39,047 nucleotides of DNA from Bacteroidaceae bacterium (GTDB lineage Bacteria > Bacteroidota > Bacteroidia > Bacteroidales > Bacteroidaceae), in NCBI GenBank assembly GCA_017526905.1, contig JAFXQT010000037.1, positions 1 through 39,047 on the forward strand, given 5' to 3'. The translations under genes were made by a program, and so were the position numbers. The notes under the pieces are model-generated. The model was not told the origin of the DNA. It ran no database searches and saw only the letters and a list, made by a program, of their open reading frames with translations. The first letter of the stretch is position 1. Every line of letters begins with the position of its first letter. Below, piece after piece: positions 10,453 to 37,084 of this stretch.

Positions 10453-10465
10453 GCTTACGGCTTAT

Positions 10466-10528
10466 AGTTTAAAGTTTAAGGTTTAAAGTTGAATGTTTAA
10501 AGTTGAATGTTTAAGGTTTAAAGTTTAA
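10466..10528 (+). repeat. Nine tandem heptamers, NGTTTAA type
   Basis: Nine units of seven bases follow one another without gaps: AGTTTAA twice, then GGTTTAA, AGTTGAA, TGTTTAA, AGTTGAA, TGTTTAA, GGTTTAA and AGTTTAA. They fill most of the 92-base gap between the PKD-like gene and the thioredoxin gene. The short unit is likely to vary in copy number by slippage. No promoter consensus is clear in it. Confidence 0.85.
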
Positions 10529-32921: not shown

Positions 32922-34142
32922 ATGAACATTAAACACCCTATAATGAAACGAACAAAAATTGTGTTGCTGCTCTTCTCACTCATGGCGTGGGGAAGCAATA
33001 TTAAAGCCGACAATGTTATCACTGCCAACGACGTGAATATACGTCCTGGAGGCACAACGGAGCTGGTTGTGAGTTTGGAGAACGATGCCGACTTCAATGT
33101 CTATGCCTATGACTTCCGTTTGTATCTACCAGACGGCATAGAGGTGGCTAAGAAGGATAACGGATCGTATATTTACGAGCTGAAGGAGCGTAATGCTGAC
33201 CACGGAACCAATGTGCAGATGACTTCGGATGGCGCTGTACAGTTTGGCGTTAACAGTCCTGAGCTGTATCTTACCGGAACCTCTGGCCCTGTACTGGGCA
33301 TTACGCTTAAAGCTTCTGCTGAATTGGCCGAAGGAAACTATCAGGCATCCATCCAGCGCATAACGTATGCCAATAAAGAAGCACAGACCGTGCATCCGGC
33401 TGACATAACCTTTAATATCGTTGTTAAGGACTTGGTCGTGCTTGATGAAACTGCAACCGAAGCACCGGCCCCGACGGATGGACCGGTTAACGTGCAACTG
33501 AACCGGACAATTAAGGGCGGTGAGTGGAGCACGATTGTACTGCCGTTCGCAGCCACGGGCGATCAAGTAAAGGCAGCCTACGGAGATGATGTGCAGCTCT
33601 CGGCGTTCACTGATTGGAGCAAAGAGGAAGATGACAATGGCGCAATAATCGCCATCAACGTGAATTTCACGGAGGCTGCTGTGCAGGACGGCATTCCTGC
33701 CAATACGCCTATGCTCATCAAGGTGAGCGAGAACGTTACAGAAGCTACGTTCGACGGCGTGACGTTGGAGCCGGATGAGGAACCGATGGTGAGAGTAGGC
33801 AAGACGGCCTCGAAGCGCGGCTACTTCTATGGTACGTACGTTACGACACAAGTGCCGGAAGAGAACGTTTTCATCTGCGGAAATAAGTTCTACTATTCAA
33901 GAGGTGCTACAACGATTAAGGGCTACCGTGGCTACTTCTTGTTCCATGATGTGCTGGATGCTTATTATGCTGGTGCAGATGTGAAGTTCAACTTTAATAT
34001 TGGCGGGCATCCGACAGCTATTGAAGGCATCAGCACAGCAGAAGCCAAGGGTGCAGCCTATGACCTTGGCGGTCGCCGTATAGCAAGGCCGCAGCAGCGT
34101 GGCATCTATATCGTCGACGGCCGTAAGAAGCTTGTCTATTGA
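32922..34142 (+). CDS. Secreted cohesin-like protein with C-terminal sorting-like motif
   Basis: A 406-residue exported protein. The ATG at 32943 (MKRTKIVLLLFSLMAWGSNIKA) gives the better signal peptide; 32922 adds seven residues. Residues about 30-155 form one cohesin-like module (NVITANDVNIRPGGTTELVVSLENDADFNVYAYDFRLYLPDGIEV). Residues about 165-370 are a beta domain I have seen in Prevotella secreted proteins (KGGEWSTIVLPFAATGDQVKAAYGDDVQLSAFTDW, GIPANTPMLIKVSENV) whose function I do not know. The C-terminus is AYDLGGRRIARPQQRGIYIV plus DGRKKLVY. It is the last large gene of the FRG-protease-cohesin run and starts four bases after the previous stop. Confidence 0.8.
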   Translation: MNIKHPIMKRTKIVLLLFSLMAWGSNIKADNVITANDVNIRPGGTTELVVSLENDADFNVYAYDFRLYLPDGIEVAKKDNGSYIYELKERNADHGTNVQMTSDGAVQFGVNSPELYLTGTSGPVLGITLKASAELAEGNYQASIQRITYANKEAQTVHPADITFNIVVKDLVVLDETATEAPAPTDGPVNVQLNRTIKGGEWSTIVLPFAATGDQVKAAYGDDVQLSAFTDWSKEEDDNGAIIAINVNFTEAAVQDGIPANTPMLIKVSENVTEATFDGVTLEPDEEPMVRVGKTASKRGYFYGTYVTTQVPEENVFICGNKFYYSRGATTIKGYRGYFLFHDVLDAYYAGADVKFNFNIGGHPTAIEGISTAEAKGAAYDLGGRRIARPQQRGIYIVDGRKKLVY

Positions 34143-34640: not shown

Positions 34641-34728
34641 TAAGCCGTACGCGTGTAGCCCGCAAGCCGTACGCGTGTAGCCTGTAAGCCGTACGCGTGT
34701 AGCCTGTAAGCCGTACGCATGTCAGCGA
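34641..34728 (+). repeat. 22-base tandem array, type 1 (four copies)
   Basis: The core AAGCCGTACGCGTGTAG begins at 34642, 34664, 34686 and, with two changes, 34708: exactly 22 bases apart. GTACGCGT contains a short palindrome. The array is not coding, since 22 is not a multiple of three. Confidence 0.9.
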
Positions 34729-35002: not shown

Positions 35003-35097
35003 CTTGCGGTAGGCGGGCGCTCACCCTGCGGTAGGCCGGCGCCCGCCTTGCGGTAGTTCAGCCCTCTGCTTGCGGCTGGTAGTCCTTTGCATGCGGA
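35003..35097 (+). repeat. 22-base periodic array, type 2 (TGCGG core)
   Basis: The core TGCGG starts at 35005, 35027, 35049 and 35071, each exactly 22 bases apart, and again at 35092 after 21. The flanking bases are similar in the first three units (GCCTTGCGGTAG type) and decay afterwards. It is the second of three arrays with this period in the same gap. Confidence 0.75.
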
Positions 35098-35120
35098 TGT
35101 CCAGCTCGTACACTACGTGA

Positions 35121-35168
35121 GTTAAAAGGGAAGTTAAAAGGGAAGTTAAAAGGGGAGTTAAAGGGGAA
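35121..35168 (+). repeat. 12-base tandem array, left arm (four copies)
   Basis: GTTAAAAGGGAA is repeated at 35121, 35133, 35145 and 35157, exactly 12 bases apart with one or two changes in the last copies. The same unit in reverse orientation forms the array at 35464-35547. Confidence 0.9.
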
Positions 35169-35197
35169 GTAACTCAAGTTTCGGAAGTACCTCACAG

Positions 35198-35445
35198 CCG
35201 ATGCCGAGACATCAGATATTGGTTCTTCGAAGTGTCGAAGCGACCAGAGGTCGATCCGATGCCGTAGGCATCAGATATTGGTAGCCAGCCATTCCTATGG
35301 CTGGTATGTAGGCCGTGAAAAAAGCGTGCCTTTAGGTACGCGACCGCAAATGATGTCGCGTACCTATGGCACGCTATCCTATAACATGCACATTAAACCA
35401 GCCATAGGAATGGCTGGCTACCAATGTCTGATGCCTACGGCATCG
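35198..35445. repeat. Hairpin chain and 48-base inverted repeat between the two 12-base arrays
   Basis: Perfect hairpins follow one another: GATG/CATC (35200-35213), CTTCGA-AGTG-TCGAAG (35225-35240), CGACC-AGA-GGTCG (35241-35253), GATGCC-GTA-GGCATC (35258-35272), CCAGCCAT-TCCT-ATGGCTGG (35285-35304), a long one made of AGCGTGCC/GGCACGCT and AGGTACGCGAC/GTCGCGTACCT (35323-35375), then CCAGCCAT-AGGA-ATGGCTGG (35398-35417) and GATGCC-TAC-GGCATC (35430-35444). Bases 35257-35304 and 35398-35445 are inverted copies with one mismatch. CATCAGATATTGGT also occurs twice directly. There is no ORF of note. Confidence 0.85.
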
Positions 35446-35463
35446 ACTGTTTACTTCCGGAAG

Positions 35464-35547
35464 TTTAACTTCCCCTTTAACTTCCTTTTTACTCTCCTTT
35501 TTACTCCCTTTTTTACTCCCCCTTTCACTTCCCCTTTTAACTTCCGA
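35464..35547 (-). repeat. 12-base tandem array, right arm (seven copies, inverted)
   Basis: Seven consecutive 12-base units (TTTAACTTCCCC type) start at 35464, 35476, 35488, 35500, 35512, 35524 and 35536. Read on the minus strand they are GGGGAAGTTAAA, the same unit family as the left array. The palindrome ACTTCCGGAAGT lies just before them at 35453-35464. Confidence 0.85.
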
Positions 35548-35565
35548 AAATTAATAAGCCCGTAA

Positions 35566-35645
35566 GCTCGAAGTGCATGGACTTATGGCTCGAAGTGCAT
35601 GGACTTATGGCCCGAAGTGCATGGTCTTATGGCCCGAAGTGCAGC
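35566..35645 (+). repeat. 22-base tandem array, type 3 (3.6 copies)
   Basis: CGAAGTGCATGGACTTATGG recurs with exact 22-base spacing from 35569, 35591 and 35613 (two changes), and a partial copy from 35635. Both this array and the one at 34641 are preceded by AATAAGCC followed by GTA. Confidence 0.9.
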
Positions 35646-35770: not shown

Positions 35771-37084
35771 ATGCCAAACCTCATCGCTATTGTAGGACGC
35801 CCCAACGTGGGTAAGTCCACACTCTTTAACCGCCTGACCAAAACCCGTCATGCCATCGTCTCAGACGAAGCAGGCACCACGCGCGACCGCCAGTACGGCA
35901 AGTGCGAGTGGGTGGGCCGCGAGTTCTCCGTGGTGGATACCGGCGGATGGGTGGTCAACTCGGACGACATCTTTGAGGAAGAGATACGCAAGCAGGTGAC
36001 GCTGGCCACGGAAGAGGCCGACGTGATCCTGTTCCTGGTGGATGTGAACACGGGCGTGACCGACCTTGACGAGGCTGTGGCGGCCATACTCCGCCGCACC
36101 GACAAGCCCGTGATACTGGTGGCCAACAAGACGGACAACGCCACGCAGCAGTGGCAGGCGGCCGAGTTCTACTCGCTCGGCCTGGGCGACCCCTTCTGTA
36201 TCTCGTCGGCCACCGGTAGCGGCACGGGCGACCTGCTGGACCTGATTATTGAGAAGCTGCCCAACGCCACCGACAGCCAGGAGGAACTGGACCTGCCGCG
36301 TATTGCCGTGGTGGGGCGCCCCAACGTGGGCAAGTCGAGCCTGACGAATGCCTTCATCGGCGAGGAACGACACATCGTGACGGACATTGCCGGCACCACG
36401 CGCGACAGCATCTACACCCGCTACCAGAAGTTCGGCTTCGACTTCCTGCTGGTGGACACGGCCGGCATACGCCGAAAAAACAAGGTCAGCGAGGACCTGG
36501 AGTTCTACAGCGTGATGCGCAGCATTCGGGCTATCGAGAACTCCGACGTGTGCATCCTCATGCTGGATGCTACGCGCGGCATCGAGGCGCAGGACCTGAA
36601 CATCTTCCAGCTCATCCAGCGCAACCAAAAGGGGCTTGTGGTGGTGGTGAACAAATGGGACCTGGCCGAGGACAAGAGCAACACGGCCATCCAGTTCTTC
36701 GAGGATGCCATTCGCCAACGCATGGCGCCGTTCACCGACTTCAGCATCATCTTTGCCTCGGCCCTGACCAAGCAGCGCATCTTCAAGGTGCTGGAAACGG
36801 CAGCCGAGGTGTATAAGCACCGCAAGGCCCGCGTGGGAACCACTCGCCTGAACGAGGAGATGCTGCCGCTCATCGAGGCATATCCGCCCCCATCGATGAA
36901 GGGCAAGTACATCAAAATCAAGTATTGCTCGCAGCTGCCGGACACACGCATCCCGTCGTTCGTGTTCTATGCCAACCTGCCGCAATATATCAAAGAGCCC
37001 TACAAGCGCTTCCTGGAGAACCAGATACGCGAACGGTGGGACTTCAGCGGCACACCCATCAACATCTTCGTCAGGCAGAAGTAA
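35771..37084 (+). CDS. der: Ribosome-assembly GTPase Der (EngA)
   Basis: A 437-residue protein, normal length for Der, an essential double GTPase needed for 50S subunit maturation. Two G domains are visible: the first with GRPNVGKST (from residue 9), [11 protein letters not shown] and NKTD; the second with [31 protein letters not shown] and NKWDL. A C-terminal KH-like domain follows ([44 protein letters not shown]). The start at 35771 ([14 protein letters not shown]) is the only one that keeps the first G domain intact. Its stop is 11 bases from the stop of the convergent lipoprotein gene, and no terminator hairpin is visible there. Confidence 0.98.

Follow-up and report, generated by a model that had tools for sequence, protein, structure and literature searches.

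The intergenic element at 35120-35555 of the window (the whole 39,047-nt stretch of DNA that was analysed) is very probably a non-autonomous, MITE-like transposable element built in two layers, a gene-less Y1 hairpin cargo inside an ISPepr1-type shell. The cargo would be the paired, inverted, hairpin-rich ends of a Y1 (IS200/IS605-type, RAYT-like) transposon that lacks its central transposase gene, and the shell a pair of inverted ends of about 15 bp, of the ISPepr1 type within the IS4 family, with tandem 12-nt arrays adjoining. An ISPepr1-type transposase acting in trans would have cut and pasted many of the copies, a Y1 transposase would have produced the hairpin cargo or also moved it, and the arrays would have grown from end-proximal sequence. 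Since gene-less hairpin ends are framed here by the ends of a foreign transposon, the element probably spread by means of enzymes from elsewhere. Among the possibilities raised by an earlier, sequence-only reading of this DNA, it is the non-autonomous mobile element that gained support, from a dispersed family, target duplications, kept palindromes and related transposons that still have their gene.

Layout of the element and its setting

The host genome (G000; 2.8 Mb in 104 contigs, 79% complete) carries the element in a 1.6-kb intergenic stretch without convincing genes, between an ORF ending at 34142, for which no Pfam family was found, and a der/EngA-type gene (35771-37084). The element was first described as encoding no gene, and indeed its sole ORF of at least 80 aa is an unconvincing TTG-start frame of 95 aa. 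The same intergenic stretch also holds three different 22-nt tandem arrays (34641-34722, 35005-35056 and 35569-35643), and sequence resembling the third 22-nt unit recurs in G000 at C1, C23, C35, C66 and C72. Elsewhere in the window (10462-10528), a tandem array of the 7-nt unit TTAAAGT, 9.6 copies long, lies in what is apparently another intergenic region.

From left to right, the element comprises a 12-nt array, a motif that resembles a transposon end, a hairpin chain whose dyad symmetry is near-perfect, and a second array in the opposed orientation. The left array (35120..35170, + strand) has four units of AGTTAAAAGGGA, which TRF counts as 4.2 copies at 92% match. The four copies of GTTAAAAGGGAA originally noted there do stand at 12-nt spacing, but only two are exact, and two carry one change. 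Next comes the left terminal inverted repeat, CTCAAGTTTCGGAAG (35173..35187, +), identified by pattern scans as an ISPepr1-type end that fits YT-AA-YTT---A. The chain opens with an extra module, a degenerate outer GATGCC hairpin (35200..35213, +; arm 4), and with two optional hairpins, CTTCGAAGTGTCGAAG and CGACCAGAGGTCG (35225..35253, +), a module that recurs in other copies. Hairpin A, GATGCC-GTA-GGCATC (35258..35272, +), occupies a position that holds a hairpin in the aligned family. It is followed by a REP-like unit (35281..35304, +) evident in the alignment of 18 elements and made of a GTAG tag and hairpin B, CCAGCCATTCCTATGGCTGG; the first eight stem pairs of hairpin B are formed in all 18.

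At the centre (35324..35374, +), DNA folding joins two half-hairpins (35324-35341 and 35358-35374) in a stem that pairs 8 + 12 bases across a 10-nt loop, with the small internal loop noted at first reading. A covariance model of the half-chain is placed in the window at 35256-35341 (+) and 35358-35446 (-), leaving 16 nt between the half-chains (35342-35357), the site that a Y1 transposase gene occupies in relatives. The inverted repeat and the family alignment then give a mirror REP-like unit, hairpin B plus CTAC (35398..35421, -). The bases after mirror hairpin B are CTACC in 11 of the 18 aligned elements, CTATC in 3, CTAAC in 1 and CCGCT in 3. Mirror hairpin A, GATGCC-TAC-GGCATC (35430..35444, -), is likewise found in the family alignment.

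Beyond it lies a degenerate inner right end, CTTCCGGAAGTTTAA (35454..35468, -), with 1 mismatch in the end scan (L088), and then the right 12-nt array (35464..35545, -). Repeat finding and unit comparison show the latter to be less regular than the seven copies at exact 12-nt spacing once ascribed to it: it has about 6.8 imperfect units, with 81% match and 4% indels, one spacing is 11 nt, and compared with the left unit its units carry 1-4 changes. The degenerate outer right end, CTTCCGAAAATTAAT (35541..35555, -), was read directly and has 2 mismatches to the end pattern.

The long inverted repeat with one mismatch is real (35257-35305 against 35397-35445; 49 nt, 98% complementary). The count of at least eight perfect hairpins between 35173 and 35468 depends on the arm required, as 9 have arms of at least 4 bp but only 7 have arms of at least 5 bp; mononucleotide shuffles produce a mean of 1.5 of the latter, with a maximum of 5 in 200. 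The stability of the folded element is far beyond chance (DNA folding: -140 kcal/mol, z = -19.8; 0 of 100 dinucleotide shuffles equally stable).

A dispersed family

Nucleotide and covariance-model searches across relatives, the check proposed at the outset, found a multi-locus family with kept hairpins. The nucleotide search gave 107 matching segments in the element's own genome (E <= 0.001), a number that includes the self-match, palindromes matched on both strands, and the 22-nt arrays nearby. Several of these matches are cut by contig ends, as expected of repeats, which break assemblies. The half-chain covariance model, built from 17 sequences and 21 pairs, had matches (E <= 0.001) in 20 of the 121 genomes of the same genus. 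When at most 36 candidates per genome were scored under stricter filters, five genomes had at least 18 matches: G000 (at least 35), G045 (at least 24), G071 and G126 (at least 36 each) and G136 (at least 18). The GTAG-CCAGCC hairpin pattern was found in at least 115 stretches of named genomes; among the matches listed, most come from metagenome-assembled genomes of Prevotella, Prevotellaceae, Bacteroidaceae or Bacteroidales, many of them from ruminant stomachs, and a few from elsewhere (Pantoea, Pectobacterium, Microbacterium, Verrucomicrobia and others).

The position beside der is not shared. A search of 61 genomes, own included, gave 57 matching relatives, and in the 24 of these that were retrieved (two flanks being cut by contig ends), no element or end motif lies within about 1.5 kb of der. 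In those relatives whose flank was viewed, the upstream neighbours of der differ, so the absence shows only that the insertion is not conserved and is weak evidence.

Shell ends and their transposase

The end motif, [CT]TCAAGTTTCG[CG]AAG, fits the consensus published for the ISPepr1 subgroup of the IS4 family, which has ends YT-AA-YTT---A, direct repeats of 7-8 bp and a size of 1500-1600 bp (PMC2266710). The window's left end fits that consensus as well, and its right ends have 1-2 mismatches. The end pattern TYAAGTTTCGSAAG occurs in 54 of the 121 genomes; in the own genome it occurs 28 times, and the backwards-read pattern 0 times. G136, G134, G118 and G125 have IS copies, about 1.58-1.59 kb long, that carry ends of this kind, with a transposase frame that is intact in the first two, seemingly frameshifted in G118 and interrupted by one stop in G125. 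The transposase scores 395 and 401 bits with the NCBIfam IS4 model NF049925 (cut-off 250) and has the Y(2)R(3)E(6)K motif. Its D-D-E spacing, assuming that the second D of DDTD is catalytic, is 113 and 117 residues, of which 113 is just above the range published for the IS4 family, D(60~110)D(100~150)E (PMC2266710).

This IS4 transposase was found at 1e-10 in 8 of the 121 genomes, far fewer than have the end motif, and none was found in G000, 79% complete as that genome is. G136 has an IS4 gene and a Y1 gene as well as two-ended elements, and so unites all three parts. The IS copies, inspected by eye, show no clear target duplications of their own. In four own-genome copies (L066, L076, L079, L095), a shell end is adjoined by sequences that end in or near AAGTGGGCTC; these are probably ends of another mobile element.

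Target duplications

Two samples were examined for target duplications. The first comprised 50 convergent end pairs 25-700 nt apart, 47 of them with flanks. Exact adjacent repeats of 7-9 bp, standing in register with the shell ends, flank 22 of these 47 (14 of 7 bp, 7 of 8 bp and 1 of 9 bp), against 0.56 expected from shuffled right flanks. Sorted by origin, pairs that came from the hairpin search have duplications in 15 of 26 cases, those from the genus end search in 2 of 8, the two-ended copies located by end motif in the own genome in 1 of 7, and pairs from other sources in 4 of 9. Own-genome support is accordingly thin.

The second sample started from the hairpins: 40 places yielded 25 chains with two paired hairpins. 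Allowing up to 3 mismatches per end, 18 of the 25 have both shell ends, 2 have one and 5 have none; with at most 1 mismatch per end, 11 have both. The reversed end pattern, applied to the same chains, gave both ends in 0 and one end in 6. Exact repeats of 7-10 bp flank 10 of the 18 two-ended copies, with 0.59 expected, and 9 of 17 when the one copy common to the two samples is set aside. The five chains that have no recognisable ISPepr1-type end (four in G045, one in G054) indicate that the shell is not obligatory. Near three hairpin chains of G045 (L401, L403, L404) and near L264 there is a different short end-like motif, CTGTTGGATGAATTAA, found at both ends in L403 only and at one end in others; this motif is possibly the end of a second shell.

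Interiors of the shell

What lies between the ends varies. The 50 end pairs enclose nine interior groups, between which BLAST shows no similarity at 1e-3. With 37 members, the window-type chain is the largest group, a share biased by the many pairs that were retrieved by that very hairpin; four groups are single elements, one of them with a run of N. Folding is common to most of the interiors, with z below -3 in 43 of 48. In four loci (L169, L310, L130, L135), the contents of the shell ends include hairpin chains of CCCCGAAGGGGT / GCAGGGGT and inverted minisatellites (AGGTTGTAAGG and ACAGAT types).

The hairpin cargo and the Y1 transposase

The origin of the cargo is suggested by relatives that have a gene in it. 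Six of the at least 115 stretches found by hairpin carry a Y1 (IS200-like) transposase gene (L242, L249, L262, L286, L312, L329), and in four genomes such a gene stands in the middle of a window-type chain: G071 (L312 = L356), G136 (L329 = L357), G126 (L358) and RUG13423 (L262). The order there is an outer hairpin, GTAG, the CCAGCC hairpin, a GCGTGCC/GGTACGC hairpin, the gene, and the mirror image, with ATAG in place of GTAG in G136 and a longer CCAGCC hairpin in L262. The half-chains lie close to the matched Y1 region, 26 + 20 nt away in G136 and 20 + 18 nt in G126. In the genus sample, family hairpins stand on both sides of each of the five Y1 genes closest to L312 (51-100% identity). The four relatives with a gene in mid-chain thus indicate that the window chain is probably a Y1 (IS200/IS605-type, RAYT-like) transposon without its gene, and REPIN-like. 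PATEs, palindrome-associated non-autonomous IS200/IS605 elements known from haloarchaea, are also gene-less Y1 derivatives, though they are likened to the present chains by description only.

The Y1_Tnp domain is found in these Y1 proteins. The protein of the window type scores 82 bits with the NCBIfam IS200 model NF033573 (cut-off 55) and 25 bits with the RAYT model NF047646 (cut-off 80), hence it lies outside the RAYT clade as that model defines it and is termed here RAYT-like. A Y1 gene of at least 76% identity is present in 3 of the 5 genomes with at least 18 half-chain matches, and none was found in the 79% complete G000. Around a more distant Y1 gene (G013, L106) lies a different chain, of GCCCAGGGCATCGCCCTGGG and GCCCTTTCAGGGC types, and by eye this G013-type chain occurs without a gene, within ISPepr1-type ends, in L139 and L154. 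A related hairpin subfamily accompanies the G022-type gene and can be seen by eye also in the own genome (C97, C82, C104). No Y1 gene was seen within an ISPepr1-type shell among 26 loci; an ORF was called in 15 of these, of which 14 have no end within 900 bp and one has a single site with 2 mismatches.

Perhaps two unrelated transposases are able to mobilise the chimera, a DDE enzyme by way of the shell and an HUH Y1 enzyme by way of the cargo. The shell would be a container shared across the genus, and its palindromic contents, two different gene-less Y1 chains among them, would pass from one species to another. This extension of the two-layer account is tentative.

Alternatively, a Y1 (RAYT-like) transposase alone might move the element as a REPIN or BIME, by way of single-stranded DNA, the ISPepr1-type ends being incidental. 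The position of the gene at the centre of the chain in relatives is what one would expect in that case, as are the GTAG tag at the foot of the palindrome in 17 of 18 aligned elements, the single close Y1 gene per genome in G071, G126, G136 and G022 alongside many hairpin copies in three of them, and the copies in G045 and G054 that do without ISPepr1-type ends. But the exact 7-9 bp duplications stand in register with those ends, and the same ends enclose unrelated interiors. Target duplication is not known for Y1 transposition of the IS200/IS605 type, and the duplications therefore demote this explanation to an unlikely one.

Conservation of the palindromes

The pairing of the chain is well kept, among 18 aligned sequences that are related to one another. 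Their local hairpins are paired in 93.5% of cells, with 19 cells changed on both sides against 7.6 in shuffles, and the long dyad is paired in 94.0%, with 36 double-changed cells against 15.4. Counted by pair, the local hairpins are not clearly above chance, either in how many pairs carry double changes (6 against 4.1, with at least 6 in 46 of 500 shuffles) or in further pair types (382 of 500 shuffles reach the observed number). Where the local hairpins and the long fold-back stem compete, the result is mixed as far as the aligned sequences can tell: at columns 73 and 115 the local pair survives in sequences that have lost the long one (four at each column), whereas at columns 74/77 and 216/219, by the loops, and 167/176, at the centre, the long pair is kept in most or all of the sequences where the local one breaks (7, 7 and 18). 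The alignment speaks for palindromes that have been kept, and not for selection at the RNA level.

A structured regulatory RNA or transcript-processing element, its hairpins maintained by selection, would indeed be consistent with palindromes kept through changes on both sides, but recognition of the hairpins by a transposase, or concerted evolution of repeats, would give equal covariation. Moreover, no Rfam family scores above its gathering threshold (0 in the window), no such element accompanies der in the 24 relatives, and the interiors are interchangeable. A role as RNA is thus highly improbable, and this possibility, like that of a protein-organising site, both raised by the sequence-only reading, found no direct support. 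An Rfam hit to MIR6201 (window 35270-35432; 51 bits against a threshold of 69) seems to reflect a long stem matching by chance. Least credible of all are a protein-organising site, a terminator-like site or the mere decay of local repeats, for which symmetry and intergenic place might speak: the family is dispersed and has target duplications, neither a unique locus nor unconserved hairpins, the signs proposed for decay, were found, and by comparison with its relatives the element is not local repeat decay.

The 12-nt arrays and the window copy

G000 has further arrays of this kind, of which two, at C28:3.0 kb and C76:17.0 kb, are closed by a good copy of the shell end, CTCCCGAAACTTAAA, better kept than the window's right end. 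Similar arrays lie within shell ends in G069 and G081. The 12-nt unit matches the sequence just inside one IS end (L199) at 11 of 12 bases, and in three other IS loci it has no match within one mismatch. The arrays may have arisen by tandem growth of end-proximal sequence, the weakest step of the proposed mechanism.

The window copy has a good left end, 1 mismatch in its inner right end and 2 in its outer right end, and it has no target duplication; the inner right end was compared with the left for this. The degenerate right end and the missing duplication suggest that this copy is probably rearranged and possibly immobile. Insertion of the chain into an element that bore arrays may account for this, as may loss of the right end through recombination between similar TTCCG sequences.

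Relation to known systems

The remark that no described element has this plan holds for the combination only, of which no prior description was found in the literature searched, itself partial in coverage. REPINs and REPtrons, and MITEs with similar ends and different interiors, have been published (PMC3116915, PMC3733652, PMC4596501). The former resemble the present family in their inverted pairs of GTAG-tagged palindromes, their many gene-less copies and a transposase gene flanked by the same palindromes (PMC3116915, PMC3733652). They differ in that each half here strings at least three different hairpins together in order, that many copies lie inside DDE-type ends with target duplications, and that the Y1 protein falls below the NCBIfam RAYT cut-off. 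In the distribution given in one of these accounts, GTAG families are assigned to Proteobacteria, Cyanobacteria, Chloroflexi and PVC, and Bacteroidetes are listed only for CGTC repeats (PMC3733652).

The likeness to the ISPepr1 subgroup and the MITEs derived from it extends to the end consensus and the 7-8 bp duplications, and, in the IS of relatives, to a length of about 1.6 kb, the YREK motif and a transposase of a single ORF (PMC2266710). Unlike those MITEs, the short elements carry foreign palindromic interiors, and no IS remnant was seen in them by eye. BrickBuilt and other MITEs of P. gingivalis also have similar ends with unrelated interiors, interior tandem repeats, intergenic positions and about 10-20 copies; they differ in their IS5-type ends and their minisatellites of 23 or 41 nt, and the main text describing them does not use the word "hairpin" (PMC4596501).

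REPIN-type palindromes, associated with Y1 enzymes, and MITEs, associated with DDE enzymes, are usually treated apart; here they are joined in one repeat family of Bacteroidales, whose hosts include many ruminant-gut genomes. With gene-bearing and gene-less chains at hand, and an IS that has the same ends, the mover of such palindromes becomes testable. The family also carries two warnings, that what passes for "structured non-coding elements" here can turn out to be the ends of transposons, and that covariation of hairpins in such elements does not prove a function as RNA.
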